Positions 2,108 through 41,561 of a DNA stretch of 45,517 bases are shown here, piece after piece. Positions within the stretch are counted from its first letter, which is position 1; every line of letters starts with the position of its first letter. The DNA is from a virus, in the IMG/VR virus record IMGVR_UViG_3300017971_000402, positions 1 to 45,517 of that record. One strand, given 5' to 3'. The notes under the pieces are model-generated. The model saw only the letters and a program-made list of their open reading frames with translations, was not told the origin of the DNA and ran no database searches. Made by a program: the position numbers and the translations under genes.

Positions 2108-2618
2108 TACCAATATCCACCGCCATTTCTTCGATAGATTTGTATTTTTTGCGCCTCGCAACATAGTCATACGGATAAACCTCATACCCCCTCATTTCCA
2201 ACTTTGCCCTGGTGGACACAGGAATTTTCCGCTTACGGCCAATATCAACACGATAATTATCACACACCTCACAACCAATCACATATTCGTAAGGATAGCA
2301 TCCATCTTCCGGCTCGGGACGAAACCACAACCAACCCCTACCACCGCACTCCGCACAATTTTGCTTTTTCGGCTTTCGAATCATTTGGGGGTGATCTTCG
2401 CGCCACTTATACCAGCCAGAAAAAAAATCATTGATGGTAGGAAACTGCGATGGATTGGGCTTTGTCGCCTTGATCATCTCGTTGACAATATCCACAATAG
2501 CTGCATCTGGGATAAAAGACAGATTGGTATAGTACGTTTCCATCTGGTCGGTGGTTAATGTTTTTTTAAACCACGCTTCCGCTTTTTTTAAGGCGATTTC
2601 GAAGTTCTCTATATGCAT
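2100..2618 (-). CDS. zinc-finger replication partner (possible helicase-loader role)
   Basis: 172 residues from ATG 2618, which has GGGGG 9 bases upstream. The N-terminal 80 residues are helical (IENFEIALKKAEAWFKKTL, PSQFPTINDFFSGWYKW), resembling small phage proteins that follow the replication initiator and load helicase. Then CAEC and CEVC pairs, about 30 residues apart, form a zinc-ribbon or DnaJ-like cluster (CAECGGRGW). It directly follows, and overlaps by 53 bases, the initiator gene, as lambda P follows O. The helicase-loader role is inferred from position; there is no ATPase motif. Confidence 0.65.
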   Translation of the reverse strand: MHIENFEIALKKAEAWFKKTLTTDQMETYYTNLSFIPDAAIVDIVNEMIKATKPNPSQFPTINDFFSGWYKWREDHPQMIRKPKKQNCAECGGRGWLWFRPEPEDGCYPYEYVIGCEVCDNYRVDIGRKRKIPVSTRAKLEMRGYEVYPYDYVARRKKYKSIEEMAVDIGNE

Positions 2619-3471
2619 CGCTATTGCCCCCATCTTTCATGGCCCACGCACTAAATTGCGGGGCGTTTCTAACCCACTGTTGCCAAGCCCTACCCCAATC
2701 CACCATTAAGTTGCCTCGGCCTATGTGGTAGTCTTTAAAAGCTAAAAGCAGTTCATCAATTTTTGCGGGGTTGATGTCTCTATCAACTGCGTATTTTTTT
2801 AAATCATCACTAAGAGAGAAATCTTCTTTTAGTTTATGTTTCTTATTCTTTTCTTTTATAGTTTCTTTTATAGTTTCATCTGGAGTATTCTCAGAACGGT
2901 CTTGGAATAGTTCGGGAACAATCTTGGAACCCTTGTTTTTATTGCATGAAATACAAGCTGTTTTTAAGTTTGTGGGGTAATCAGAACCTTCTTTGCTTTT
3001 AGGTAATATGTGGTCAACCGACGGAAATTTACTATTGGGTCCGTCTGGTTTTTCTTGTATATCTGTATATTCCCCGCACAAATAACAAATAAATGAATCT
3101 CGTTTAAAAATAGCCTCGTGGTATTTATTGTTTTGAATGCTTGGGCAGGGATTTTGAGGTTTTTGGGGCTTGTCTATTCTTTGATGAACCCTAAATTTTA
3201 TTATCCACGCAAAGCTTTGGTTGTTTTTGGTATATAAAAAAATCAGACCAAGCTCCGATAGTTTTCTTAGAGTGTTCTTGATTTTGTCTGTTTTTATTTT
3301 AGAATCATATGGGAAAATAACAGATTTGAGATATAGGGGGTTTGCCTTAATTAAACCCTCATCATCTGCATAATTTAACATCCCCAATAACAGACACTTT
3401 TCAACTGGTTCTAACATTCCAGTTTTTTCATCTGTCCAAAATTCGGGTTTTACCATTCGTGAACGTGGCAT
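2566..3471 (-). CDS. phage replication initiator (winged helix, DnaT-like C-terminus) with an inserted HNH domain
   Basis: 301 residues. The start MPRSRMVKPEFWTDEK and the following helices are typical of phage replication-initiation proteins with an N-terminal winged helix (about residues 1-100). Residues 113-180 form an HNH nuclease module: CYLC, then SVDHILPKSKEG, and CISCNKNKG. The chain then returns to a Lys/Glu-rich linker and a C-terminal DnaT-like segment (about 260-280) with the VDWGRAWQQWVRN signature that binds ssDNA and helps load helicase. The HNH part sits exactly where such proteins normally have a loose linker, so it looks like a domain insertion. The gene starts directly after the stop of 3472-3726. 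Confidence 0.8.
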   Translation of the reverse strand: MPRSRMVKPEFWTDEKTGMLEPVEKCLLLGMLNYADDEGLIKANPLYLKSVIFPYDSKIKTDKIKNTLRKLSELGLIFLYTKNNQSFAWIIKFRVHQRIDKPQKPQNPCPSIQNNKYHEAIFKRDSFICYLCGEYTDIQEKPDGPNSKFPSVDHILPKSKEGSDYPTNLKTACISCNKNKGSKIVPELFQDRSENTPDETIKETIKEKNKKHKLKEDFSLSDDLKKYAVDRDINPAKIDELLLAFKDYHIGRGNLMVDWGRAWQQWVRNAPQFSAWAMKDGGNSDAYRELRNRLKKSGSVV

Positions 3472-4059: not shown

Positions 4060-4080
4060 TACCTTTTTTAGGATATTTTA

Positions 4081-4341
4081 ATGGACTTGTATAGGAATAT
4101 AATTGGTGAGACGATTAAAAAGTTTCGGGAAGCCCGCGATTTGAGCCAAAAAGAACTTGCTATTTTAGCGTTTGGATATGAAGCAACAAATTGCATGGCC
4201 GGTCAGCGCAAAATCAGTAAAATAGAGAACGGAAAGCAAGAACTGCATATTACAGAGCTGTTTGACATCGCCCGCGCCCTCAGTATAGATCCTCAAATTT
4301 TAATTGCCCACATGATAAAAATGCACAAAAAACAAAATTAA
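4081..4341 (+). CDS. CI-like repressor (HTH_3)
   Basis: 86 residues. The Cro/CI-type helix-turn-helix spans residues 12-60: IKKFREARDLSQKELA, a loop with Cys and Met, then KISKIENGKQELHITELF. A Lys-rich end (IKMHKKQN) follows; there is no LexA-type autocleavage domain. AGGA precedes the ATG. The gene lies between two outward promoters carrying the same operator, exactly as cI lies between OL and OR, so it is the best candidate for the prophage repressor. Lacking a self-cleaving domain, induction would need another signal or an antirepressor. Confidence 0.75.
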   Translation: MDLYRNIIGETIKKFREARDLSQKELAILAFGYEATNCMAGQRKISKIENGKQELHITELFDIARALSIDPQILIAHMIKMHKKQN

Positions 4342-10661: not shown

Positions 10662-10784
10662 ATGAAAATTATAATCTTAATATTGGTAAATATTCATTAT
10701 TGGTCGGGTAGGATAGCCTACAAAATGTCCCGTCAAAAAGGCGAATCATATCTTGATTGGCTCAAAAGGATGAAAATTTGTTGA
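10662..10784 (+). CDS. 40-residue hypothetical peptide
   Basis: MKIIILILVNIHYWSGRIAYKM begins with a hydrophobic segment of about 16 residues and continues as a basic tail (SRQKGESYLDWLKRMKIC); each part is given separately. It could be a membrane-anchored peptide. The gene starts 9 bases after the previous stop, consistent with an operon. Low to moderate confidence. Confidence 0.4.
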   Translation: MKIIILILVNIHYWSGRIAYKMSRQKGESYLDWLKRMKIC

Positions 10785-10837
10785 CCTTCGCCAACCATAA
10801 GGTTAATCCTTCTTTCAAAACGAAGGGAGGGTTAGCC

Positions 10838-11920
10838 ATGAAAGGGAATATATACCAAACAAAGTCCGGTTGGTTGGTGTGGTATCCTATGGGCAAAGAA
10901 AAGGATATCCGTAAACGATTCATTAAATACGACGACGCCGAAAAGTTTCTGGTAGGGCTTAATTTCAAGGATGCAGAAGGAACCCTTGATGGGCGTGATT
11001 ATAGGGCTGACAATCCTTTGGGTTTTTCTAATTTAGTCGATAGGTTCATGGAATCTAAGCGGTTATTAAAAGACCCAGGAGCATACCGTAAACGACTCAG
11101 GTTTGGAGTCGAAAGATGGGGCAATCGCAACATTAAGACCATAGGATATGCCGATATTGAAGCCCTGGTGCTGGATTTACAAGAGCGAGAATATTCATCC
11201 CGGTATCGGCATGAAATCAGCGTAAGTCTTAAACACTTTTTTAAATGGTTAGTACAGGGAAAGGAGATTAGACCCGATGAAATACCGGACTTCCCGGTTA
11301 TCAAGCATTCAAGCCCTTACCGAAAAATTGTGGATAAACATACACAACAAAAAATTCTCGATGGCGTTAGGAAAATCACGCTATTCAATCCACGCATATA
11401 TATCGGAATCCTTTTCCTATCGACCTATATCAATGTACGTCCTGGTGAACTTGTATCCATCAAAGAAAAAGACATCGACCTCGAGAACGAACGAATCCTG
11501 ATCCGGCACTCAAAAACCGGCCAAGACAAATACATATTCCTGCTGCCGGATGATGTTGAATTTCTCAGACAGCAACCGAGGGGTTTTCCTGAACTTTACT
11601 TTTTTCGTCATTTGAAGGGAAGACACGGAGCTAAAGCCGGTCAGCGGTTTGCCAAAAACTATTTTTATCGCTGGTGGAAAAAGGCGTGTACCAACATTGG
11701 GGTCGATTGTGACCTATATGGTGGCACAAGACATTCATCTGCTGTGGCATTAAGACAGCACAACACACCGGAAGCCATTAAGCGTGCTACGGGGCATAGA
11801 TCAAAGTCATCCTTTGACCGTTATTTACAGATCACAGGGGACGAGCTTAAGGGAATATATGCCCAGACCCGTGATAAATCCGTGATAAAACTTTCAGACC
11901 ATATAAAAGATGCTAAATAG
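10838..11920 (+). CDS. int: tyrosine-type site-specific integrase
   Basis: 360 residues from ATG 10838, chosen for the GGGAGG site 8 bases upstream. The N-terminal part (about 1-60) may be the arm-binding domain, followed by a SAM-like core-binding domain (about 65-165). The catalytic part shows Arg in NVRPGEL (about 203), Lys in HSKTGQDKY (about 230), YGGTRHSSA (box II Arg, with Tyr in the usual first-His position), GHRSKSS (about 312) and the nucleophile Tyr in FDRYLQ (about 322). It should join phage and host attachment sites. It is the last large gene of the early operon, and the attachment region probably lies just downstream. Confidence 0.95.
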   Translation: MKGNIYQTKSGWLVWYPMGKEKDIRKRFIKYDDAEKFLVGLNFKDAEGTLDGRDYRADNPLGFSNLVDRFMESKRLLKDPGAYRKRLRFGVERWGNRNIKTIGYADIEALVLDLQEREYSSRYRHEISVSLKHFFKWLVQGKEIRPDEIPDFPVIKHSSPYRKIVDKHTQQKILDGVRKITLFNPRIYIGILFLSTYINVRPGELVSIKEKDIDLENERILIRHSKTGQDKYIFLLPDDVEFLRQQPRGFPELYFFRHLKGRHGAKAGQRFAKNYFYRWWKKACTNIGVDCDLYGGTRHSSAVALRQHNTPEAIKRATGHRSKSSFDRYLQITGDELKGIYAQTRDKSVIKLSDHIKDAK

Positions 11921-12051: not shown

Positions 12052-12339
12052 ATGAAAACGTTAATTATAATAACACTAAGCATTTTATTAATTGGGGGGG
12101 TATCAATGGCTGAACAAATTCAAGTTGTTACCACGGCGCAATGGTGTGCCCATCCAGATAATAAAGATGATGAAATATGTAAAGAGTACCAAAAAAGAAC
12201 AGAAAACAAAATTGATAAGTTTGAATTTGCTATTAGAAATGGAACTGTTTATTATAAAGAGGTGGGGTGCCGTGCATGTACATGGGAAGACATAATGCCA
12301 GCATGGATGGTAAGGGAATTAATTAGGAAAAGCAACTGA
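12052..12339 (+). CDS. small exported protein
   Basis: 95 residues after a GGGGGGG site. A Sec signal (MKTLIIITLSILLIGGVSMA) with cleavage near SMA-EQ. The mature part has four Cys (WCAHPDNKDDEIC, GCRACTW) that could form disulfides, and a conserved-looking EDIMPAWMVREL end. Probably periplasmic. Placed after the integrase like many lysogenic-conversion genes. No family recognised. Confidence 0.7.
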   Translation: MKTLIIITLSILLIGGVSMAEQIQVVTTAQWCAHPDNKDDEICKEYQKRTENKIDKFEFAIRNGTVYYKEVGCRACTWEDIMPAWMVRELIRKSN

Positions 12340-12402
12340 GTTAAAAATATGCGGAACTTGCATAAATATAGTATGCAAACATAAACTGATTTAAACAAGT
12401 GT

Positions 12403-12601
12403 GTGCCATTGGAATAGCAAAGACGGTTGATAACCGACCCCACCATACAGGGGAAAACAGCGCCAAGATAAGTCCGTTTAATCAACGGCAGTCTGGACCC
12501 ACTAGAGGGTCTGGTTATTATCTCTGGTGGGCGATCTTTGGAGTTGCTTGCCGGTTGAGAACTCCGACAAAGCCCTTAAAATCATCGTATGGTAATGGCA
12601 C
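12403..12601 (+). ncRNA. unidentified structured RNA (about 200 nt)
   Basis: Read as RNA, GTGCCATT (12403-12410) closes with AATGGCAC (12594-12601). Inside are CGGTT/AACCG (12424-12428, 12432-12436), CCCC/GGGG (12438-12441, 12450-12453), CCGTT/AACGG (12474-12478, 12484-12488), a 10-bp stem with one G-U pair (12498-12507 with 12522-12531), and CTTTG-GAGTT/AACTC-CAAAG (12536-12545 with 12560-12572, 3-base bulge). So a closed multi-branch fold with five hairpins. It ends 30 bases before a small membrane protein, so it may be its structured leader, a riboswitch, an antisense-type regulator or an independent RNA. Orientation is set only by this neighbour. No Rfam-type match is recognised. Confidence 0.55.
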
Positions 12602-12631
12602 CTATTTTAAACTTAGGTGATGGGGAGTACT

Positions 12632-12805
12632 GTGGAAAAAATATTTAATCATCCAATTTATATTCTTTTTGTTTTCATCGTTGTTATGCCGGTAAATGGG
12701 CTTATTGCATCAATGGGTGGCAGTTGGATTCTATTCGGTGTGGCTTTGATTTGTATGCAAATTCCCTGGATATTGGGCATTGTGTCTAAACTAAGAAGCA
12801 ACTAA
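12632..12805 (+). CDS. two-TM small membrane protein
   Basis: 57 residues from GTG 12632, which has GGGGAG 5 bases upstream; an ATG at 12620 is an alternative. Two hydrophobic segments (IYILFVFIVVMPVNGLIA and WILFGVALICMQIPWILG) with a short loop and a basic end (SKLRSN). It resembles small holin- or toxin-like peptides. With the structured RNA right upstream, a riboregulated membrane peptide is possible. Function unproven. Confidence 0.5.
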   Translation: MEKIFNHPIYILFVFIVVMPVNGLIASMGGSWILFGVALICMQIPWILGIVSKLRSN

Positions 12806-12848
12806 TTCATAGAAACCTGTTCACAAAATGTGACTAACAAAAAATAAA

Positions 12849-12874
12849 CTATAGTTTCCTTTTTTAAACTATAG
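12849..12874. terminator. bidirectional terminator
   Basis: CTATAGTTT (12849-12857) pairs with AAACTATAG (12866-12874). On plus, a T-run follows (12877-12881); on minus the transcript ends TTTATTTTTT. It separates the rightward early operon (ending 12805) from the leftward late operon (ending 12880). Confidence 0.7.
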
Positions 12875-12879
12875 GGTTT

Positions 12880-13056
12880 TTAATCTTCCTCAAAAAACAT
12901 CTCTGCAAGCTGCTGCTTTATCCTGATAATCCACAATGCAATTCTCGGCGGGTATCGTTGATCAGAAAAGGCATATCCGCAGATTGGGCATTTTACAAGA
13001 CTTTCCCGTTGATGATCTTCTTGTTTGATACGCTGAAGTCTCCCTGGGAATCCCAT
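12880..13056 (-). CDS. 58-residue zinc-ribbon protein at the end of the late operon
   Basis: ATG at 13056 gives MGFPGRLQRIKQEDHQRESL and then VKCPICGYAFSDQRYPP, a single CPIC pair, followed by a basic/acidic amphipathic helix (IRIKQQLAEMFFEED). It overlaps the metallophosphoesterase 3' end by 64 bases in another frame, and its stop abuts the terminator. The CPICGY motif argues for coding. Function unknown. Confidence 0.5.
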   Translation of the reverse strand: MGFPGRLQRIKQEDHQRESLVKCPICGYAFSDQRYPPRIALWIIRIKQQLAEMFFEED

Positions 13057-13925
13057 TCAACGATTCCAAAACCATGATTCCACTTGTTTACGGGTGAGTA
13101 TTCCTGGCTTAATTTACATAAACAACCAATAGACCATGCCCCATCGTGTGAATGATCCAATTTGCGCTCTATGTTTTCCTGTGTTCTATGATAATGTGCC
13201 ACTAGAACATTAACTAAGCACCTTTGATAGTAAATACGCGGGATATTAACGACACTATAATTAACCTTAACTTCGTGACCGTGTAAAACATTTAGCTTGC
13301 CCAATCTGAATGGTTGCATTTCTTCCCTTAACAACTGGGCGTTGTCAATATACTTCCAGCGCAATTCGTCCAATTCGTATATATTGGGAATTGTCAAAAT
13401 GTCCAGACCGGCCAGTTTTTTAGAACCGGACCACAACTCCCTCCGCAACCTGTCCTCGTGGTTGCCGCAGATAAATATCTTTTCTTTAATCGACTTGCAC
13501 TTATCGATCTGCGCATTATACCCCTTAAAAATATCAATTGATTGTCTTACTTCAGACCCGTAATCGGGTCTCAATGGGTCTGTCTTCCAGCTACTAACAG
13601 TATAACAGTCAAACGTATCTCCGTTAAGAATGATCATATCGGGGTTTTTAGACAGGCCCCAATCAAGCGCAGCCCGTATTGCAAGGTCGTCATGGTAGGG
13701 AATGTGCATGTCGGCCATTACAAGGGCTGTCATCGTCTTGCCAGATTTTGGTCTCAGGCGGGTTTCGTAATGAGCAACTATTTTTCCGTACTGGTGAAGA
13801 TAAGCAAACACCCGTGCATGATGTTGTGTAATGTTTCCCTGTTGCTCAAGACCCCTTCTTGAAATCTTGGGGTAGGTCCTAAAAAGTTCTGCAATTTCTT
13901 CCGGTATTTCTACAACTACTTTCAT
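12993..13925 (-). CDS. calcineurin-like metallophosphoesterase
   Basis: 310 residues with GGAGCAAGGGGT before the ATG. After an HTH-like N-terminal part (about 1-60) come the metal motifs: MADMHIPYH (D-x-H), ILNGDTFD (GD), ICGNHEDR (GNHE), LHGHEVK, and VAHYHRTQE in place of GHxH. These define the two-metal phosphoesterases that cut nucleotides, RNA or DNA. A phage DNA-processing or nucleotide-cleavage role is plausible. It lies after the lysis genes, outside the usual structural set. Confidence 0.85.
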   Translation of the reverse strand: MKVVVEIPEEIAELFRTYPKISRRGLEQQGNITQHHARVFAYLHQYGKIVAHYETRLRPKSGKTMTALVMADMHIPYHDDLAIRAALDWGLSKNPDMIILNGDTFDCYTVSSWKTDPLRPDYGSEVRQSIDIFKGYNAQIDKCKSIKEKIFICGNHEDRLRRELWSGSKKLAGLDILTIPNIYELDELRWKYIDNAQLLREEMQPFRLGKLNVLHGHEVKVNYSVVNIPRIYYQRCLVNVLVAHYHRTQENIERKLDHSHDGAWSIGCLCKLSQEYSPVNKWNHGFGIVEWDSQGDFSVSNKKIINGKVL

Positions 13926-14962: not shown

Positions 14963-15189
14963 TTAACAAACAACGCCCATACTGCTCGGGCTGTTAAAAA
15001 AGTTAATAGGGGTGCGCCTATCGCAGCAATTATTTTAAAATATGTTTTGTGTATTGCCACTTGGGTTTTAAGTCCAGCCCGACCGTTGCCCTGCAAAATA
15101 TCCAGGATAGTTTTTACATCAGACAAAATAGTTTCCTGATGCGTTTTTAAGGTAGTGATTGTTTCTTTTTCCGTACATGGTTGCGTCAT
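14959..15189 (-). CDS. XhlA-like membrane protein, putative holin component
   Basis: 76 residues. A coiled-coil N-terminus (TITTLKTHQETILSDVKTIL) and a hydrophobic C-terminus (FKIIAAIGAPLLTFLTARAVWALF). This layout matches hemolysin XhlA-type proteins that help release phage lysins. The ATG overlaps the stop of the upstream spike gene by 4 bases; the peptidase start overlaps its end by 4. So spike, holin-like and lysin are translated in a chain. Confidence 0.65.
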   Translation of the reverse strand: MTQPCTEKETITTLKTHQETILSDVKTILDILQGNGRAGLKTQVAIHKTYFKIIAAIGAPLLTFLTARAVWALFVK

Positions 15190-16898
15190 GGATTAATCGA
15201 TACCCCGCTAATTTCTCCTCCGCTAATAATTTCAAATGCCCCAACGTCAGGATTTGAATCTCTATTTGCCATACAGTCGCCAATAGTTAATGCAAATGTA
15301 TCATAATCAATACAGGATGGTTTTATGCCCAAGTTTACGCCATGTGTAACACTAGCTATTTCTGGCGCACCCGTTACGGTCAGCCCCGTTTGACCATAAT
15401 CAACTACCGGGCTTCCCGCCGATGGCTCTCCGTGAGAATCAAGACTTAAAGTTGTCTTGTAGTTATCGTCTATGCTGCAATCTGTATGGTCGGAAACGTC
15501 TGCATAATTCCAGTTGTCCGTTGGAGTCGAATCGTTGTCGTTTTCGCTTGTCGGAAGTACATAATCGTCGTTGGCATCGTCTTCGGGATCAAAAAAAACG
15601 TCATATGTGGCGTGGGGCGCATCCTCAAATATGTTATTCTGTATAGTAACCGACCATGTTTGATTACCGTCAGAATTTTTTAAGCAGAAATTCATATCTG
15701 TCCAGCGGTTACCCTCGGATTGCTGATCATCTTCCTGGTAGACATCATCTGCAACATTATTGGAAAATTGATAGGTGTATGCTTCGAACGCATCTGCGGC
15801 AGAATTCCCGGATTCATACACACCCTCAGCAATATTCTTGAAAGTATTGTGCCACCAAAAAACATTGTTGCCAGATTCATCAAGCCCGTAGTCAACATTG
15901 TAGATAGCAAAATTTTTATTATCACACCCACCAGCCCAATCATCATAATTATCACGAGCTGCGCAGGTGCCGCTTGAATAGTCATTGTCGCAACATGCTA
16001 AAAAATCAGTGAACAAATTATTATAGCCATACCCCGCCGTACCACTGCCCATATTAGAAATGTGACTACCTGTAGCTACGTTGTGAATCCAATTTTCGAA
16101 AACATAAACATAACCGGAGTCAAATTTTACACCAAACGCTCTGCCGTAAGCCCTATCTGGATTATAGATTTCGTTCCAATAAATATAAATCGGGCCGTCA
16201 GTTCCCGTGGTTGTTCCAATTGCCGTGTGGCCCCAATTTTTAAAATAATTTCCTTTTATTGTAATGGTTCCATCACAACCATATGGATCGTTAAAGCCGT
16301 CCCGAGAAGTCATAGCGGCTGCAAGATAAGAAGCGGTGTCTTCAATCTTGCAATTTTCAATCGTTACATGATCTACTGAAGACGACTTGACTTCTACCGC
16401 CGTGTTGCCTGTATCGTCAGTATCGTGTGCCACATAAACTTGTTTAATCGTTACATAGTCTGAATAGATACCAACAACCCGATCTCCGCCACCAATTATG
16501 CTCAGGTTGGGGCTTGCCCCATAAGGCATATCAGAATCGTTACCATCTATGGTTATATTGTCTGCTCCGGCATTAAAATCCATCGCCACACCGGATAGGT
16601 GAATAGTAACCTGGACACCCGATTCCGGCTGAATAGTAATCCCCGCATGGTCTGAATCAAGCTCAAACGAAATAGAGTCATAATCATTACCATCGTCGCA
16701 CAATACTACGGTATCGCCCGAGGAAAAAGACTCACCATTAAAATCTTCAACATCCATAAAATCCGAGGCTGAACCACTGTTGCAAGCAGTCGTCCCCTTA
16801 CTGCCCTTTGTTCCGTCCGCCCTCATATAATAGGTCGTTGCAGCAAAACAGTTTACTGAAAGAAGAAGAAACAGTAATAATATCAATGTTTTTTTCAT
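15186..16898 (-). CDS. exported beta-helix protein, tail-spike-like (cassette protein 5)
   Basis: 570 residues. A Sec signal (MKKTLILLLFLLLSVNCFA) precedes a long right-handed beta-helix body with repeated short turns of hydrophobic, Asn and Asp residues (VTIKQVYVAHD, DHVTIENCKIED, GTITIKGNYF, GPIYIYWNEIY). Such folds form phage tail spikes and pectate-lyase-type polysaccharide enzymes. It ends ISGVSINP, the same ending as the next spike. A signal peptide on a virion-type protein is unusual. Start MKKT overlaps the previous stop by 4 bases (ATGA). No catalytic residues can be fixed from the sequence alone. Confidence 0.75.
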   Translation of the reverse strand: MKKTLILLLFLLLSVNCFAATTYYMRADGTKGSKGTTACNSGSASDFMDVEDFNGESFSSGDTVVLCDDGNDYDSISFELDSDHAGITIQPESGVQVTIHLSGVAMDFNAGADNITIDGNDSDMPYGASPNLSIIGGGDRVVGIYSDYVTIKQVYVAHDTDDTGNTAVEVKSSSVDHVTIENCKIEDTASYLAAAMTSRDGFNDPYGCDGTITIKGNYFKNWGHTAIGTTTGTDGPIYIYWNEIYNPDRAYGRAFGVKFDSGYVYVFENWIHNVATGSHISNMGSGTAGYGYNNLFTDFLACCDNDYSSGTCAARDNYDDWAGGCDNKNFAIYNVDYGLDESGNNVFWWHNTFKNIAEGVYESGNSAADAFEAYTYQFSNNVADDVYQEDDQQSEGNRWTDMNFCLKNSDGNQTWSVTIQNNIFEDAPHATYDVFFDPEDDANDDYVLPTSENDNDSTPTDNWNYADVSDHTDCSIDDNYKTTLSLDSHGEPSAGSPVVDYGQTGLTVTGAPEIASVTHGVNLGIKPSCIDYDTFALTIGDCMANRDSNPDVGAFEIISGGEISGVSINP

Positions 16899-18739
16899 GG
16901 ATTAATTGATACACCCGATATGCTACTATTGATATTTGTTTCCAGGGAACTCCAGTTGTGATCAACGTCTGCGTATCTAATCTCCGATGAACCCGAAAGG
17001 TTATCCCTGTCAGCGTACAATTCTACTTGCGTGTAGTTATTAGAACCATCGTGTCCCTGCGCTAATGCGCCCTGACTAAAAGGCCACCTTGCAGTTGCAC
17101 CCAAGCCAGAACCCGAATCGGTGGCTGAACTTCCGTTATTTGTGGGTGCAGTAAATTCCCAAACACCGGGATCTGTTTCTTGCGCAGATGTTGAATCGTC
17201 AGTATTTCCACTAAAATTAACGGCATCACCGCCACCACAATCAGAGCCTTGTGTCAGATAAGACGCCCACCCCCATGTATCGGGATCACCACTACCCCCA
17301 AGATTTGCCCCCCACGTATTGTTTGAAACCGTGACATTTGAATCAAACTTATCTCCCGCAGCATTTCCAAAGTGAATAGCGTAGCGGTCACTTGTAGCAG
17401 CATTTATTGAAAGGGTGTTCCCGTCGATCAAAATGTCAGTCAGTGAGGAACAATCGGCAGGGCCATAATTAAACCAAATTGCCGAAGAGGAAGAAGTTGT
17501 ATTACGATACATTTTATTGTTTAAAATATGGATATGTAAAAGGTCTATTTCTTCGGCTGAGTAAACCTGTATAGCGTGCTTGTCTGAATCAATATAATTT
17601 CCAACCCAATAATGGTGCTGCATGTCCGACCCGGACGCAGTATTGTATGATCGCATTAGGGCTTGCTCACAAGTATTAGAGAAAATTATATTTTCGACTC
17701 CAAACACATAATCCCTACCGGCACCCGTATATATTAAGACATCATTTGCCCTTGAATTGGTATAATAACACCGCCACAAAACAGAATTGCCGGAAGCATA
17801 CCATGTAGATGTCTTCCCATCTCCCCGGCAATCGGTATCTACTGCTCCCATATCAACCAAATTCACACGGCGCACAACGGAAGCGGAATTGCTCGTTATT
17901 GAAGTGAAATCATCGAGCGTAATGTTTTCAAGTGTGGCTCCACCTTGATTGACAGCCCAAACATTATCATAATCTGTTCTGGTTCCGGTGTAATAATATT
18001 GCAAGGTCATGCCGCCAGTGACCAGAACATTACTGGCTGAGTTGTCCTCAATGTCTAAAAACTCATCTCGGTTGTTATCACACCCACTAGCATCCTGCCC
18101 GTAGGTGTTTCCTGGGTCAAATCTCAGCGTGACCCCTGGGCCACCAGTTAGAGTCGTGTTGCTATATAGGCTCAATCCGTAGGTGTGCCCAGTTGCCCCG
18201 CCTTGATAGTCTCCTGCAATTCTATAGGTTCCATCCTCAAAACTAAGAACACCACCGCTTGATAAATGGGTGTTTATGCAAGTTTGTAGCGCCAAGGTGT
18301 CATCCGTTGAACCATTTCCCGCAGCGCCACAATCTGCTTTCGCAGCCTTTGTTACCGATCTTGACGCATACATCTGCACCCGCACAATAGCCATTTCGGT
18401 TGCGTTGCCATTACCCGTATCTGTTACAACTACTTCGATGTCATAATTGCCGGGAGAGTTTAGGCTTATGGACGGATTTTGGTCATCATAAGTATAACCT
18501 CCATCAGTGACGTACCTGTCTTTTAAGCCGTCAAGCCAAGGGAAATTCCAAGCATAAGTATATGGCCCCGTACCACCCGAAGGAGTAACGCTAAAGTTAA
18601 GCGTTTGGGTTCCGGTGATCTGATACACTCCACCAGACCACGAACCGGACCCCCCGGATACAGTGGCAGATAGGTTGAAAGCTGCTGCGACAAGCGGAAA
18701 GGCTAATAGGGCAACTATGTAAACATATAGTTTTTTCAC
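16895..18739 (-). CDS. exported PKD plus pectate-lyase-like beta-helix protein (cassette protein 4)
   Basis: 614 residues from GTG 18739, directly after the previous stop; the longer frame lacks support. Signal MKKLYVYIVALLAFPLVAAA, then a PKD-like domain (about 22-125; YTYAWNFPW, DNYDIEVVVTD-type pattern), then a Pectate_lyase_3-type start (CGAAGNGSTDDTLALQ, GGVLSFEDGTYRI) and beta-helix turns to the end, which is SISGVSINP. PKD domains often bind glycans. Likely a spike or depolymerase. The start codon position relative to the lectin gene (2 bases apart) suggests coupling. Confidence 0.78.
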   Translation of the reverse strand: MKKLYVYIVALLAFPLVAAAFNLSATVSGGSGSWSGGVYQITGTQTLNFSVTPSGGTGPYTYAWNFPWLDGLKDRYVTDGGYTYDDQNPSISLNSPGNYDIEVVVTDTGNGNATEMAIVRVQMYASRSVTKAAKADCGAAGNGSTDDTLALQTCINTHLSSGGVLSFEDGTYRIAGDYQGGATGHTYGLSLYSNTTLTGGPGVTLRFDPGNTYGQDASGCDNNRDEFLDIEDNSASNVLVTGGMTLQYYYTGTRTDYDNVWAVNQGGATLENITLDDFTSITSNSASVVRRVNLVDMGAVDTDCRGDGKTSTWYASGNSVLWRCYYTNSRANDVLIYTGAGRDYVFGVENIIFSNTCEQALMRSYNTASGSDMQHHYWVGNYIDSDKHAIQVYSAEEIDLLHIHILNNKMYRNTTSSSSAIWFNYGPADCSSLTDILIDGNTLSINAATSDRYAIHFGNAAGDKFDSNVTVSNNTWGANLGGSGDPDTWGWASYLTQGSDCGGGDAVNFSGNTDDSTSAQETDPGVWEFTAPTNNGSSATDSGSGLGATARWPFSQGALAQGHDGSNNYTQVELYADRDNLSGSSEIRYADVDHNWSSLETNINSSISGVSINP

Positions 18740-18740
18740 G

Positions 18741-19496
18741 TTAAAACGGCGCCCCCGGAAATGTAGTTTCCACATAAACATCATCAATAAAAGGTTCATG
18801 TCTCTCCATATCAATAACTCCAACTGTACCCACCCTGATTGCTGTTGGTTCATTCGAAAAGGTGCAGGTGGCGGTTGAGTCACTAGCTTGAGCGGTGTCG
18901 TTTACCTCAAGATATATATTATCACCAGTTGAATCCCACCAAGCCTCTATTTTATTCCAACTGTCTATGGTTATTGCATTGGTGTCTGTTTGACAAAATC
19001 CATCAGCACTACCCGCAGCGGATGAATAATGATAAAATCTAACTCTCTCCGAACCGTCTGCGCTTATGTGTTGAAAATTGTTGGAATCGTACTCAACATC
19101 CCAAAACACAGTAACATTAGTACCATCAAGAGTATAATAAACCCACAACAATATATACCCTTCGCTACTATTCCAAACATCTCCCGAACTAATTGCCCAG
19201 CTAATGTACTTACTTGGATCGTCGAAATAAAAGCTCTCACCCGAACCAGTAGTGTGGTCTTGGGTGTCCGAAATAGTGCCGCCATTTTGTGTGCCTTCTT
19301 TTGTACCCCCACTAATACACGCAAACAAATCTCCGCTAGTATGATCTGCATCCCAATAAAATTCATACGACCCCAACTTTCCATCGCAATAGTCACCACC
19401 AACGGCCCCGCTGCCGATCAACATGCCCGCATTAACAGGGCACGTTAAAAGAAAAAGACAAATAACAACGCTAAGGAATAACGATTTTCGTACCAT
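18741..19496 (-). CDS. exported lectin-like (LamG/concanavalin) protein (cassette protein 3)
   Basis: 251 residues from ATG 19496, with AGGAG 9 bases upstream; ATG 19502 is only 3 bases from that site. A Sec signal (VRKSLFLSVVICLFLLTCPVNA) precedes a jelly-roll pattern: SYEFYWDADHTSG, ESFYFDDPSKYISWAI, EGYILLWVYYTL, NKIEAWWDSTGDNIYLEV, FIDDVYVETTF. The alternation and the closing D-D-V-Y-V strand are typical of LamG/laminarin-type domains that bind carbohydrate. It overlaps the end of the upstream beta-helix gene. Probably host-glycan recognition. Confidence 0.7.
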   Translation of the reverse strand: MVRKSLFLSVVICLFLLTCPVNAGMLIGSGAVGGDYCDGKLGSYEFYWDADHTSGDLFACISGGTKEGTQNGGTISDTQDHTTGSGESFYFDDPSKYISWAISSGDVWNSSEGYILLWVYYTLDGTNVTVFWDVEYDSNNFQHISADGSERVRFYHYSSAAGSADGFCQTDTNAITIDSWNKIEAWWDSTGDNIYLEVNDTAQASDSTATCTFSNEPTAIRVGTVGVIDMERHEPFIDDVYVETTFPGAPF

Positions 19497-25988: not shown

Positions 25989-26223
25989 AACTCGCCCTCT
26001 CAGTCCACCTCTTATCGAATGCTTTGCTCCCGCCAGCAAATAGTTTAGAAACCATCCTGTTGCTTGTGTCATAAACCAACTGGTGTATAACCCATTGGTC
26101 ATCGGACTCATCCGCACCCGGACGAGCATATCCGATATACTGCTCATACCCGTCAGAATTGTACGCAATTCGTTGGGTTAAAAGCAGCGTTTCTTCAAGC
26201 ATTACATTTGTGTAATGTGCCAT
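25975..26223 (-). CDS. 82-residue protein before the fiber cassette
   Basis: MAHYTNVMLEETLLLTQRIA begins a small alpha/beta protein (DGYEQYIGYARPGADESDD, QWVIHQLVYDTSNRMV) with a basic Trp/Arg end. No signal peptide or family recognised. Its start lies directly after a hairpin whose 3' arm is the ribosome site (see 26224-26266), and it overlaps the fiber gene by 14 bases. It could be a fiber adaptor that makes the join to the virion. Confidence 0.7.
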   Translation of the reverse strand: MAHYTNVMLEETLLLTQRIAYNSDGYEQYIGYARPGADESDDQWVIHQLVYDTSNRMVSKLFAGGSKAFDKRWTERASYEYV

Positions 26224-26266
26224 AATAAAAAAGCCTCCCTGAAACAGAGAGGCTTTCGCGTGTCTG
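26224..26266 (-). promoter_or_regulatory. hairpin with overlapping ribosome site, copy 2 (fiber cassette)
   Basis: On the minus strand CAGACACGC (26266-26258), three bases, then AGCCTCTCTG-TTT-CAGGGAGGCT (stem 26254-26232, one G-U), then T6-A-TT and the ATG at 26223. GGGAGG is both the 3' arm and the Shine-Dalgarno. Layout and words match 39979-40021 before the scaffold gene. It is either a terminator that doubles as ribosome site or a translation switch. Confidence 0.6.
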
Positions 26267-26294
26267 AATTACTATAAAAATTATTTATGTTTCG

Positions 26295-27860
26295 TTATTT
26301 TGAAAAACCAATCTCCTGGCGAAAATCAACGAGTTGCCCACCAATATGAAGGCCCGCCTTTAACCCACCCTTTGTTGCGTGCCTTGCAACCAACTGCACC
26401 GCCTTTTTGCCCGTTGGCGACAGTAAAGAATAAGCACTTATTGCCCCAAAACCCTCAACAATTGGTATGCCAACCGGACCAAACATCGCATAAGCCCCAG
26501 CACCAGCTGCAAACGGCGAAGCTCCAGAAGATATTGCACCAGCAACAGACCCCGCCGTTCCCATCATCCCCGGCCTAATCCCAACATTTTGAGTCGCTTT
26601 TTTAAAATATGGCACGATATCTGCGTAAAACTTTGCCTCCCCCTCAAGTTTGGGCCAATAGGGTTCTAAACCGGCAGCAGTTCTTTTTGTATCTATTTTT
26701 AAAACCGCATCTTTGTTCATGTAAATATTTTTTGAAAGTTTATAGGGGTCAATTGATTGCATCCCTAAATCAGCTTCTTTTATGGATTTGTCGAATATTT
26801 TCTTTATGTCAAGGAAATCCCTATATTCCATATATAGTTTGTCAGCAGCCCCCTTCGCCTCTCCCGCAACTTCGTCCATATCCATCAAATACGCTTTTTT
26901 AAGAGCCCTTCTATTTGTCTGCTGGGTCGGAGTAACCTTTAAAAAAGATCCCCCGCTTTTGGGTTTTTCCCTAAACACATGATCCAACAACCAAAAGAAA
27001 TCATCAGAATTAGGAGACTCGCCAGTGTCTATAATTCTTTTTAATTGTCTGCCATACAACCCACCCGGGGCATACCCAAACTCCTCGGCCAACAAGCGCA
27101 TTGTTACTTGCTTGTCTGTTAACTTCGGATATTGAGTAGTATATTTCTGCTTTAAAAACTTAAAATATTCTTCGGTATTTATCGTTAAAAATTTACCCTC
27201 TTTGCTTTTTTTCTTTAACGGCTCCTTGTAGGCATCGTAAATTTTGCCAATTTCTTCCTTGCCCTTCGCTAACTTTAAAGCGATATCGTCAAAATCAACG
27301 GTTTGTTTTTTAACCATATCGGGGGCGATATCATACAAAAAATTATTTGCACGCCCCACTGTCTTTTCAATTAATTTATTAGACAGCATTTTGTTTCCAA
27401 TTTGCCCAGACAGAGTAATTTTAGAAAACAACGGAAATAGCGGCTTTGCCAAGCCCTTGCCAACCACCCCCATGGCGGTTCCGCCCAACTCCCCGGCAGC
27501 GCCCAGCGCAGCCTGCTTACCCGCCTCCGCAGGGTCTAATTTTTCACCAGAAATAAACTGGCCCAAATATTCACCCACACCACCACCAGCAGCAGACCCC
27601 GCCATTCTGGAAGCAACATTTGCCATCTTTCTACCAATGGTCGCAACCGTTCCTATCCCGTGCGGGATTGCAAGTTCTGGCGCTACAACACTCCCGACAA
27701 TATCAAGAGCTATCGGCAAAATATCCCTCGCCACCTCAACACTTGGACGGGGTTGCCAATCGGGCCCAAGCGATTCTTTTTTAAATTCTTTCGTCGGTGT
27801 GTATTGTATCTCGTCAAACACATCGGCATTTTTTGCTATTTTATCAAAAATGTCGGCCAT
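26295..27860 (-). CDS. ejection-type internal virion protein, large
   Basis: 521 residues. The first 70 residues are polar; then Gly/Ala-rich, weakly hydrophobic helices (ARMAGSAAGGGVGEYLGQF, AALGAAGELGGTAMGVVG) and a C-terminal AGSVAGAISSGASPFAAGAGAYAMFGP. Such Ala/Gly segments are typical of proteins that are ejected and insert into the cell envelope to pass DNA (P22 gp16/gp20 class). No lytic transglycosylase motif is seen. ATG overlaps the previous stop by one base. Length is near the family's. Confidence 0.7.
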   Translation of the reverse strand: MADIFDKIAKNADVFDEIQYTPTKEFKKESLGPDWQPRPSVEVARDILPIALDIVGSVVAPELAIPHGIGTVATIGRKMANVASRMAGSAAGGGVGEYLGQFISGEKLDPAEAGKQAALGAAGELGGTAMGVVGKGLAKPLFPLFSKITLSGQIGNKMLSNKLIEKTVGRANNFLYDIAPDMVKKQTVDFDDIALKLAKGKEEIGKIYDAYKEPLKKKSKEGKFLTINTEEYFKFLKQKYTTQYPKLTDKQVTMRLLAEEFGYAPGGLYGRQLKRIIDTGESPNSDDFFWLLDHVFREKPKSGGSFLKVTPTQQTNRRALKKAYLMDMDEVAGEAKGAADKLYMEYRDFLDIKKIFDKSIKEADLGMQSIDPYKLSKNIYMNKDAVLKIDTKRTAAGLEPYWPKLEGEAKFYADIVPYFKKATQNVGIRPGMMGTAGSVAGAISSGASPFAAGAGAYAMFGPVGIPIVEGFGAISAYSLLSPTGKKAVQLVARHATKGGLKAGLHIGGQLVDFRQEIGFSK

Positions 27861-34578: not shown

Positions 34579-35209
34579 CTGGTTTATGCGCCCATTGCCT
34601 TTCGTGTGTTTCGGGGTACAAATCTATAAGGCCCAGTTTTTTTAAATATCTCATAAAATAATCTGTTGCGGATTTTGCATCCCCCACACTTGCCCAATAT
34701 TCACTTACCGCATAATTCACAATCGCCCATTGGTGTTCGTCTCGGACACTTATTCTGTCAGAATCCAACGTGTACCTGTCTGGAATTGCCACTGCATCAA
34801 TTTCCAAAGAATACGAATCACTTCCGGGTAATGGGTGAATACCCATTTTGTTAGTCCCAACAAGAAAATATCTTTCCGGAGTTCCGGTATCGTACATCCA
34901 GCGGTAGTTTAAATTAAGCAGATATTTAATATCTACCATTTTTAATCGCCACTTAATATCGGTAAGCCAAACACTAACCGGCCATGCAAAATATCCACGA
35001 TCATCTGTAATCTGATAGAAGTTCTTACCGCTTTGAACCGGGATTATATAACGCCTACGGTGGCAACCCGTAACCATACAAACTTCTTCAATCGCATCAT
35101 TAAGGGAATCCCTTATCTGTGCCATTCCGGTAGAATCGTCGGTGAACACATCGGGAGATTCTGTGTCTTCACCGATTAATTCTAAAACCCTGGTTTCAAG
35201 TACGTTCAT
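34559..35209 (-). CDS. head-tail adaptor protein
   Basis: 216 residues. MNVLETRVLELIGEDTES and IRDSLNDAIEEVCMVTGC form the helical N-terminus; the middle is a beta domain (VSVWLTDIKWRLKMVDI, ERYFLVGTNKMGIHPLP); the end (QWAIVNYAVSEYWASVGD, YFMRYLKKLGL) is helical. This is the usual order of gp6/gp4-type connector proteins of short-tailed phages. It overlaps the longer adaptor gene by 20 bases, which has a similar helical arrangement. Confidence 0.7.
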   Translation of the reverse strand: MNVLETRVLELIGEDTESPDVFTDDSTGMAQIRDSLNDAIEEVCMVTGCHRRRYIIPVQSGKNFYQITDDRGYFAWPVSVWLTDIKWRLKMVDIKYLLNLNYRWMYDTGTPERYFLVGTNKMGIHPLPGSDSYSLEIDAVAIPDRYTLDSDRISVRDEHQWAIVNYAVSEYWASVGDAKSATDYFMRYLKKLGLIDLYPETHERQWAHKPDELVEP

Positions 35210-35411
35210 CCCAGAACCCCTTTGACCAATCGGCTTTGTATTCCCTTAATTTTTTGGTCATAGCCTTTGCCATCGAAACCGCCACCCTTAACCGAAACTG
35301 AATATCAGGATCGTCTGTCATATTATAAATATCCCGCAATGTCTGACAAATTGTGTTTTCGCCAAACTGCTTTTTCATGACATTCGGATGTACCGGTTCG
35401 TGTTTTCTCAT
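35196..35411 (-). CDS. 71-residue hypothetical protein
   Basis: Charged and helical (QTLRDIYNMTDDPDIQFRLRVAV, MAKAMTKKLREYKADW). Seems a small virion or assembly factor preceding the adaptor; its 3' end overlaps the adaptor gene by 14 bases. 35412-35475 upstream is noncoding. No family recognised. Confidence 0.6.
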   Translation of the reverse strand: MRKHEPVHPNVMKKQFGENTICQTLRDIYNMTDDPDIQFRLRVAVSMAKAMTKKLREYKADWSKGFWDERT

Positions 35412-35475
35412 AATTTGAGCGGGGGCTCACGCAGGATAGGGCTGCGCAAATTAAGTGCTTCACACCCCCATAAAA

Positions 35476-35811
35476 TTATCTTCCAGCAGAATCAAAATTG
35501 CCGGTTTTCCGAAATACCCTTGTCTGCACATCCCCGCCATGAATGGGTGGGTTGTCCTCGCCATGAGAAAGAACTGTGTTCTCCTTGCCAACCCCGATAT
35601 TAACAAGATTATCAACCCGGGTCATCGGATCCGACAAGTCAAAATCAACAAAACTCGTTGTCGGCAACTCCCTGGTATTTACCTGAAACGGCTCCACCAT
35701 CGTTCCGAGGGTTGTGGTGGTCATCGCCCACCCGATAAAATTGACAAGACTCAGGTCGCCCTTTCCCCTGCGCTTTTTAGTATACAGGACGTCCCTTCTT
35801 AAAATACTCAT
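35476..35811 (-). CDS. 111-residue hypothetical virion-region protein
   Basis: Begins MSILRRDVLYTKKRRGKGDL and continues as a beta-rich polar chain (TTTTLGTMVEPFQVNTREL, TTSFVDFDLSDPMTRV, GGDVQTRVFRKTG). No recognised motif. The first ATG overlaps the stop of the glycosyltransferase-methyltransferase gene by 4 bases. Possible head-completion or decoration protein by position. Confidence 0.55.
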   Translation of the reverse strand: MSILRRDVLYTKKRRGKGDLSLVNFIGWAMTTTTLGTMVEPFQVNTRELPTTSFVDFDLSDPMTRVDNLVNIGVGKENTVLSHGEDNPPIHGGDVQTRVFRKTGNFDSAGR

Positions 35812-37214
35812 TTCTTTTTCTTCCTTTCTGTTTTTACGTTCATGGCCCCACCCATATAATTGTCGTCCTTCATCCAGATCATGTCACTTTTGGGAAATAC
35901 GCTTCTACTCAATAAAAAATCCCTCACAGCTGCATGGTTCATTGATATGTGTTCTGGATTTCTAAAATCCATGTTTTTAAAAAAATTTGTTATTAAAACG
36001 GATTTTTCTTTCATCCTTCCGATAGCATTATCAAGAATTGCTTCCCAATCTCCCAGATGTTCAATTACATCTAAAAATAAAACAAAATCGTAGGGGCCCT
36101 CTATTTTCCACCCAACCCTGTGATGATAACCGTCTTTATTGACCCGCCATTTTAAAAACTCATAACCAGCAGCACCCTCAACATCAACAAAGTCCATACG
36201 ATGGCCCATCTTCAACAACTCAAAACCAATCGGTGCCGTTCCGCATCCGAAATCAAGCCCATACGCCCGAACACCCTGCCGAAACTGCTTTAAAATTATC
36301 AAACCCTCCCAGGCAACATTTTTTTTGGAGTGATAATACATCTGCCGGCAGATTTGCGAAACACCACGAGACCGATAATACTCCTCTAAATCCCCTTCTT
36401 TGGAAAACTCTTTCGCACTAATATCATCATACCTAAAGGCCCCCTCAACAATCTTGTCTACCGTAAGGCCGGTATATTCAAGCACATCTTCCCGGTAATC
36501 CTTCAGCCAGTTTTCGGCCATCCAATCATCGGCAATGTGACCCTTCATAATGTTATCGGCAATAAAAGAAGACCTGTTTAAATGGGTAACAACTTCATTT
36601 TCCTGTTTTAAGTGCCCCACAACAATACTCGTGTCACACCACACAGAAAAACCCTCCGCCTTCGCCTTTTTACAAAGCTGAATGTCCGTTCCGAGATTTT
36701 TACCAACACTCTGCTGCTCGGGCTCAAAATACGGTGGTGTTATCTTATTAAAAATCTTCATGTCAATAAGCATCACCCCACCACCCTGAACATCAACTTC
36801 CTGCAAACCACCCGTAATCTCGTCATCTGTCAAAAACGTGTACTGATGTTCCCCGGTCTTTTTCATCAAAACCGGACGGTAATCACCCGCACGATGATAA
36901 TAAAGACACCCGACAATCGGCTTTTTGTGATCCAGAAGTTTCTTCAAAAAATCGTATTGCGAATGCTCACAGGTTTCCTGCCAACTGAAAACATGATCAT
37001 CATCTAAAAAAAGAAGATAATCCATGCCAGTTCTTAGAGCAGTCTCAACTATGGCATTTCTCGCCCGAAACTGTTCGGATTTCGTTCTTGCGATAAGAAA
37101 AAACTCATGTTCCTGATAGCGCCGGCCAAAGTGGTACATCATCCGCATATAATCAAATGCGACTTGCGGCTGAAGCGACTGAAAGAGTGGAATCCCTATC
37201 CCTATCCTACTCAT
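35808..37214 (-). CDS. glycosyltransferase-methyltransferase fusion
   Basis: 468 residues. The N-terminal half is a GT-A glycosyltransferase: RARNAIVETALRTGMDYLLFLDDDH with the DxD-type DDD (about 69-71; split here as RARNAIVETAL and DYLLFLDDDH), KPIVGCLYYHRAG, VQGGGVMLIDMKIF and GTDIQLCKKAKAEG. The C-terminal half (from about 280) is a SAM methyltransferase: GLDFGCGTAPIG (motif I), MDFVDVEG, FVLFLDVIEHLGD. A sugar transfer plus methyl transfer by one protein would make a methylated glycan. It sits inside the capsid-to-tail block, so the target may be a virion protein; host surface glycan is an alternative. Confidence 0.8.
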   Translation of the reverse strand: MSRIGIGIPLFQSLQPQVAFDYMRMMYHFGRRYQEHEFFLIARTKSEQFRARNAIVETALRTGMDYLLFLDDDHVFSWQETCEHSQYDFLKKLLDHKKPIVGCLYYHRAGDYRPVLMKKTGEHQYTFLTDDEITGGLQEVDVQGGGVMLIDMKIFNKITPPYFEPEQQSVGKNLGTDIQLCKKAKAEGFSVWCDTSIVVGHLKQENEVVTHLNRSSFIADNIMKGHIADDWMAENWLKDYREDVLEYTGLTVDKIVEGAFRYDDISAKEFSKEGDLEEYYRSRGVSQICRQMYYHSKKNVAWEGLIILKQFRQGVRAYGLDFGCGTAPIGFELLKMGHRMDFVDVEGAAGYEFLKWRVNKDGYHHRVGWKIEGPYDFVLFLDVIEHLGDWEAILDNAIGRMKEKSVLITNFFKNMDFRNPEHISMNHAAVRDFLLSRSVFPKSDMIWMKDDNYMGGAMNVKTERKKKK

Positions 37215-40178: not shown

Positions 40179-40757
40179 TCATATAAACCTTAACTCTACT
40201 TTATTTTTTGTTGCAAATTCGGTTGTTATCTTGTGTTCCGCTTGATAATCGTGTGAACTGTCTTTAAATTGCCGATTTTCCCAAATGGCCGAACCGACAT
40301 AATATTTTGTTTCCTTTAAAGAATCGCGTATCGAATCACACCCAAACGCCGTAACCGGAAGATTAAAAAACGAAATCGCCGCAATAATCGCAACCCCACC
40401 ATGGCTAAAATAAGGATGTGCGGCATCTTTTAAATAGCGCCCCTGCCAAAACTTAACCTGTTCCGTAATTTCCTGGCCGCCAAACTTACTTATTAAAAAC
40501 TTATACTCATCACCGATCGGGTTGCCATTTTTCGCCCAAAGATAATAACCCTCTTCGGGCAATTCCCGCCTAATTCTTTTGTTTAATCGGTTTATATTGG
40601 AAAACCAATAAGTTGTCCTTTTCCCATAGTCTATCGGTATCTGCCAATCTTTAAGATATGGAAATCTGATGACTATTCGATAGTCATCTATGTACTTCCC
40701 ATACCCCGCGCCCCTCATTGAGGGCCCGTGACCGATTATGGCAACACCGCCCTTCAA
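40179..40757 (-). CDS. glycosyltransferase family 29-like protein
   Basis: 192 residues. VAIIGHGPSMRGAGYG is the N-terminal 'nucleotide-sugar' G-loop of GT29 sialyltransferase-like proteins; RIVIRFPYLKDW and TTYWFSNINRLNK follow, and the core ends with YFSHGGVAIIAAISFFNLPVTAFGCDS, shown here as YFSHGGVAIIAAIS and FFNLPVTAFGCDS, with its conserved His and Gly-Cys-Asp. Possible target: phage virion or host glycan. It is the second glycan-type gene in the morphogenesis block. Confidence 0.6.
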   Translation of the reverse strand: MKGGVAIIGHGPSMRGAGYGKYIDDYRIVIRFPYLKDWQIPIDYGKRTTYWFSNINRLNKRIRRELPEEGYYLWAKNGNPIGDEYKFLISKFGGQEITEQVKFWQGRYLKDAAHPYFSHGGVAIIAAISFFNLPVTAFGCDSIRDSLKETKYYVGSAIWENRQFKDSSHDYQAEHKITTEFATKNKVELRFI

Positions 40758-41032
40758 ACCCAGGCATCTCCGTCCGGTTTTGGGGTCGCTCCCTTCGGCG
40801 TAACCCCCTTCTGTCTCATAACTTCTCGTTTTTGCCTGTTTGTAGATATACCCATTTCCAACTGATCATCATAATAACCATAAGCCCCAACACCCATATT
40901 TATGTTAAAACCGTTTGGTATTCGTCTAGACTCCTGATGGCATAACGGACACGCTGGTTTTTCACCATCCCGAACGATACGTTCAAATTTGTAATTACAA
41001 TTCGTGCATTGAAAATCGTATAGCCGCCACAT
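40754..41032 (-). CDS. FmdB-type zinc-ribbon protein
   Basis: 92 residues. MWRLYDFQCTNCNYKFERIV and CPLCHQESRRIPNGF make the two CxxC pairs of the FmdB/CxxC_CxxC_SSSS family. The C-terminus is Lys/Pro-rich. Similar genes occur between portal and scaffold in many phages. Role unknown. ATGA overlap with the next gene. Confidence 0.7.
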   Translation of the reverse strand: MWRLYDFQCTNCNYKFERIVRDGEKPACPLCHQESRRIPNGFNINMGVGAYGYYDDQLEMGISTNRQKREVMRQKGVTPKGATPKPDGDAWV

Positions 41033-41307
41033 TATGCTGATATCGGTGCGCCACCACTCATCGGTGTCACCCTTGTTTTGTCATCCCCAAGTTCTAACTG
41101 AATAACCGGCTGCCCATCGTCAAACCTGTGAATAACCCTTGTTATTTTTTTGGTTCTCCCCGCACTCGATTCAACAAAATCCCCCTCGCGTGGCACAACC
41201 CTAAATTCACTCGGCCACTGATCATCTGTAACCGAAAATAAATCGGGAATTACACATTGCGCCCTAACCCATTTATTTTCTGGGGGTTTTGCGAATGGAA
41301 GAATCAT
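41032..41307 (-). CDS. 91-residue small virion-region protein
   Basis: Beta-rich (FRVVPREGDFVESSAGRTKK, VIQLELGDDKTRVTPMSG) with no cysteines beyond one. VVPREGDFV-type patterns occur in small phage proteins beside the portal. Its start overlaps a possible 33-residue frame. No family recognised. Stop abuts the FmdB-like start by one base. Confidence 0.6.
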   Translation of the reverse strand: MILPFAKPPENKWVRAQCVIPDLFSVTDDQWPSEFRVVPREGDFVESSAGRTKKITRVIHRFDDGQPVIQLELGDDKTRVTPMSGGAPISA

Positions 41308-41374
41308 CTTTTTTCCCTGTCTTTCGGCCCATGCCCTTTGCGCACGACCTTATTACCCCATTTTTAATTATCAT
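41273..41374 (-). CDS. possible 33-residue basic peptide
   Basis: ATG at 41374 overlaps the previous stop (ATGATAATTAA). The product is MIIKNGVIRSCAKGMGRKTG, then KKDDSSIRKTPRK, strongly basic. It overlaps the 91-residue gene by 35 bases. Coupled start supports it; no further evidence. Confidence 0.28.
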   Translation of the reverse strand: MIIKNGVIRSCAKGMGRKTGKKDDSSIRKTPRK

Positions 41375-41561
41375 CTATTTTTCTTGCTATAATCAGCTTG
41401 CAATAAACACCCGCCAAGGCAAGCCAATATTCGTATTCGTCCTTTTTGCCCGATTCAAACGCCTCTTTTGCAAAATCAATACATTTTTCAGCGGTGGACA
41501 AATTCGTATTGTTCGCAATACCCCTTATCTCTTCTCTTATTGACGCATTTAACCATTTCAT
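41364..41561 (-). CDS. 65-residue helical protein after the portal
   Basis: MKWLNASIREEIRGIANNT, then KCIDFAKEAFESGKKDEYEYW and ALAGVYCKLIIARKIDDN. Looks like a TPR-like helix set. The ATG overlaps the portal stop by 4 bases. Possible head assembly factor. No family recognised. Confidence 0.6.
   Translation of the reverse strand: MKWLNASIREEIRGIANNTNLSTAEKCIDFAKEAFESGKKDEYEYWLALAGVYCKLIIARKIDDN

Follow-up and report, generated by a model that had tools for sequence, protein, structure and literature searches.

A candidate structured leader RNA preceding a small membrane protein gene in a phage genome record

RESULTS

Genetic setting of the locus

The window analyzed here is IMG/VR virus record IMGVR_UViG_3300017971_000402 over its full length of 45,517 nucleotides, a 45.5-kb virus record of class 'linear'. 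Its terminase is about 37% identical to those of the nearest isolated-phage relatives, e.g., Pelagibacter phage HTVC033P. The nearest phage relative found, L045, has a terminase 84% identical to it but is a 4.8-kb fragment without the region described below. The record also encodes an Enc34-type single-stranded DNA-binding protein, a replication-initiation-like protein carrying an inserted HNH nuclease domain (2566-3471, minus strand), and two consecutive tail-like proteins with the C-terminal end ISGVSINP in common (15186-18883, minus strand). Short frames with gene-like codon usage in the gene gaps at 40754-41705, 35196-35883, and 4072-4341 are probably real small genes.

The region of interest lies downstream of a tyrosine integrase gene (10757-11920) and a 95-amino-acid (aa) open reading frame (ORF) (12052-12339), in a 292-nt gap without assigned gene, whereas the surrounding genes are mostly tightly packed. 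The GC content of the region is 0.48 to 0.50, versus 0.31 on both flanks. The gap is followed on the plus strand by a gene for a 57-aa hydrophobic protein (12632-12805) that starts with GTG and has a Shine-Dalgarno sequence, GGGGAG, at 12622-12627. A metallophosphoesterase gene on the minus strand (12993-13925) converges on this side of the locus. The 57-aa protein appears from its sequence to have two transmembrane (TM) segments and matched no known family. Searches for relatives of the integrase and of the 95-aa and 57-aa proteins found none.

A perfect 7-bp palindrome, TTGCATA-N7-TATGCAA, is located at 12358-12378, with one exact copy in the whole window, and may mark an operator or promoter region. 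Twenty-one bases over it (12359-12379) exactly match the human-gut phage contig MT835736, with an E value of 1. A consensus scan revealed no good sigma-70 promoter directly upstream of the RNA, and no plus-strand terminator-like site was detected by the scan close to its 3' end; the 57-aa gene is therefore probably on the same transcript. One transcript spanning the RNA and the 57-aa ORF would be the simplest reading. An imperfect inverted repeat with T-runs between the convergent genes (12831-12892), which was not among the sites of the terminator scan, is a possible shared terminator. The heptamer TTTAAAC flanks the RNA (12390-12396 and 12606-12612), as in a MITE-like insertion; this idea was dropped, as no second copy was found and the heptamer is AT-rich.

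Predicted fold of the RNA

Thermodynamic folding of positions 12403-12601 gave a minimum free energy (MFE) of -64.6 kcal/mol and recovered the structure drawn in the preliminary description. The 8-bp perfect outer stem, P1, is exact in the sequence, with GTGCCATT (12403-12410) facing AATGGCAC (12594-12601); in the computed fold one G-U pair extends its 5' strand to 12403-12411. Inside P1, the five hairpins described earlier are all well defined in the MFE fold, with an additional, weak sixth. H1 (CGGTT-GAT-AACCG) occupies 12424-12436, and H2 (CCCC-ACCATACA-GGGG) occupies 12438-12453. The P3 domain (12462-12528) is built on the expected 10-bp stem (12462-12471/12518-12528), which contains one bulge and surrounds two hairpins (12472-12489 and 12493-12514). 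The P4 stem, GGGC/GCCC (12529-12575), encloses an inner hairpin, GGAGTT...AACTCC. Pair probabilities were 0.8 to 1.0 in almost all stems, on the plus strand only. An 11-base near-repeat, CGGTTGA(T/G)AAC, is present twice within the RNA, at 12424-12434 and 12552-12562.

A possible pseudoknot of 6 to 7 bp, absent from the preliminary description, was found between the H2 loop (12442-12448) and 12587-12593. The loop sequence ACCAUAC is complementary to GUAUGGU, which lies immediately 5' of the P1 3' strand and is contiguous with it. When P1 is lengthened by its G-U pair, the loop half runs from 12443 to 12448 and the pseudoknot has 6 bp with 1-nt linkers. Single-nucleotide linkers across a 6-bp helix are a comfortable geometry for an H-type pseudoknot. 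Such a flush, loop-filling pseudoknot was present in 0.7% of the dinucleotide-shuffled sequences and in 1.3% of the windows of this phage, a statistic that is suggestive only, because the test was devised after the feature was seen.

Statistical support for the fold

The folding energy corresponded to a z score of -2.53 relative to dinucleotide shuffles, with 2 of 200 shuffles as stable. As 24 of the 606 200-nt windows of this phage (4%) reach the same z score, and the value drops to just -1.25 when flanks are included, the fold might be a chance structure of ordinary intergenic or leader DNA, devoid of function. The frequency of long-range inverted repeats points the same way: 126 8-mer inverted repeats with spacers of 120 to 260 were observed in the whole window, for about 107 expected, and the probability of finding at least one in the 292-nt gap is 0.14. 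The outer stem by itself thus carries no meaning, since such stems are expected often by chance. The failure to find homologues also fits a chance fold. However, on the plus strand the definition of the ensemble ranked among the best 2 to 3% of both shuffles and phage windows, while the minus strand was ordinary, and just 0.4% of phage windows had both a low ensemble entropy and a low energy. The rarity of the flush pseudoknot in shuffles and the local rise in GC are also at odds with a chance structure, which we regard as possible, if somewhat unlikely.

The same analyses drew attention to other places in the record. The intergenic segment 9701-9812 has a z score of -3.6, with one of 200 shuffles reaching its stability; this is a stronger statistic than that of the RNA. 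Its MFE structure is identical to the centroid. The most extreme fold of the scan was at 26101-26300, with z scores of -6.0 on the minus strand and -4.1 on the plus strand; it surrounds a gap (26169-26294) between tail-region genes.

An open frame overlaps the RNA

The preliminary description had seen no convincing gene in this stretch. This was only partly borne out: the positional composition is not gene-like, but a 73-codon open frame with gene-like codon usage spans the RNA on the plus strand. The frame is open over 12390-12620, a run of 76 codons, and runs of at least 77 codons on one strand occurred in 3.8% of shuffles. It could thus represent a small protein gene from GTG 12399 to 12620, in tandem with the 57-aa gene, with the RNA fold being incidental. 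The 73 codons stop 11 nt short of the next start, just before its Shine-Dalgarno sequence. Their codon log-odds of 0.018 falls at the 20th percentile for true gene windows, and 1.5% of wrong-frame windows score at least as high; open frames with higher scores mostly occupy the gaps of the gene list and appear to be real genes missing from it. Nevertheless, the frame has no ATG, GTG 12399 has no Shine-Dalgarno sequence, and GC is highest at the second codon position. The positional composition score is below that of 98.7% of true windows, although low scores are also seen for several real small genes. AlphaFold2 run on the single sequence returned a pLDDT of 57, compared with 82 for the neighboring 57-aa protein, and neither a family match nor a tblastn match was obtained in the libraries searched. 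Of the synonymous-codon shuffles, 98% folded less stably than the RNA, a result also seen for 4% of gene windows. Taken as a gene, this frame appears unlikely.

Search for relatives and known RNA families

No homologue of the RNA was found in phages, plasmids, or IMG/VR or GTDB genomes, collections that may omit near relatives. blastn with the RNA region yielded no relative in phages or plasmids, the phage run returning just the 21-nt match (E = 1). A 26-nt exact pattern and six degenerate in-frame patterns run against IMG/VR and GTDB yielded no relative. The pattern of the 15-nt 3' strand had 81 matches; a single-sequence covariance model gave no score in the 80 of these loci that were searched, and three loci compared by eye bore no resemblance to the RNA. 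Model R1, which was built from one sequence and which distant members would escape, had no match at 43 loci around metallophosphatase relatives, in eight relative records, or in Omnitrophota genomes.

The suggestion that the RNA might be a riboswitch found no backing in Rfam 15, where no family, including riboswitches, ribozymes, and phage RNAs, reached its gathering cutoff. At E values up to 5, the sole match was CRISPR-DR10, below threshold with 16.9 bits for a cutoff of 39. This match involves H2 and would fit an RNA acting in trans, such as a CRISPR-repeat mimic, a retron-like donor RNA, or another small RNA, but its E value of 0.56 is at chance level. The layout, with an a1/a2-like end-pairing stem, a nearby AGC, two short hairpins, and then a long stem, resembles that of retron noncoding RNAs. 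However, the reverse transcriptase domain RVT_1 is absent from the 45.5-kb record, itself possibly a fragment (the control search was positive in 4 of 14 genomes). Retron membership was rejected because the record has no reverse transcriptase. Nor did the scan detect a terminator that would separate the RNA from the gene behind it, and we consider a trans-acting RNA quite improbable.

A type I toxin-antitoxin-like unit had also been proposed; in such a unit the 57-aa protein would be the toxin, accompanied by an antisense RNA. A small hydrophobic protein preceded by a long structured leader is in keeping with this idea. It found no other support: the consensus scan detected no sigma-70-like promoter on the minus strand between 12403 and 13000, the minus-strand fold is ordinary, and the protein lacks a match to any known family. 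This arrangement is thus very improbable.

DISCUSSION

Our tentative conclusion, and the most likely of the readings considered although still short of an even chance, is that the RNA serves as the structured 5' leader of a transcript that also carries the gene of the 57-aa two-TM protein, whose start codon is 30 bases beyond the end of the RNA, as first described. This is supported by the high probability of the stems and the strand-biased definition of the ensemble, by the rarity of the flush pseudoknot with good H-type geometry, and by the raised GC content within a gap free of assigned genes. The stability of the fold relative to synonymous-codon shuffles, the lack of a terminator near the 3' end, and the Shine-Dalgarno sequence and GTG just downstream argue for it as well. 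It is weakened by the lack of homologues, and hence of covariation, by the proportion of phage windows that match its z score and the lower value obtained with flanks, by the gene-like codon usage of the overlapping frame, and by the lack of a good sigma-70 promoter just upstream.

According to this leader model, an RNA of about 200 nt would be transcribed from the AT-rich, palindrome-bearing segment 12340-12400 and run into the mRNA of the 57-aa protein. P1 and the putative pseudoknot would use one unbroken 15-nt 3' strand (12587-12601), which may close the RNA into a compact, coaxially stacked body beside the ribosome-binding site. The leader would most likely act in cis on the translation or stability of the membrane protein mRNA. 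CCCCA in H2 (12438-12442) is complementary to UGGGG in the Shine-Dalgarno region (12621-12625); this complementarity, like the others and the computed fold, is directly observed, and one may speculate that opening of H2 allows the two to pair in a switch. It is conceivable, though doubtful, that the RNA represents a new class of phage leaders, in which a continuous 15-nt 3' strand pairs with both the 5' end and a hairpin loop and the whole acts as a compact switch for a tiny membrane protein encoded close to an integrase gene.

Candidate structured 5' leader motifs, including manA and wcaG, have been found in phages by comparative genomics (Weinberg 2010, PMC2864571). The present RNA resembles them in being a structured RNA ahead of a gene in a phage genome, but those motifs rest on covariation among many sequences, whereas ours is one sequence with no match to an Rfam model. 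Compared with retron msr-msd RNAs, the difference is the reverse transcriptase, which the present record lacks. H2 very weakly resembles the repeat hairpin of RNA-based anti-CRISPRs (Racrs; PMC10651486), but with a subthreshold match, a chance-level E value, and no host repeat for comparison. Type I toxin-antitoxin loci likewise combine a structured leader with a small hydrophobic protein; they differ in their antisense promoter and structure, which were not found here.

The RNA is thus a well-drawn candidate leader from a single sequence, with modest statistics and a competing, less likely coding interpretation, and at present it is chiefly useful for seeding covariance searches of larger metagenome collections. 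In temperate phages, the combination of a structured RNA and a small membrane protein has frequently been connected with lysogeny or with exclusion. If real, this RNA would provide a case of that combination in which the structured RNA is a previously undescribed one.
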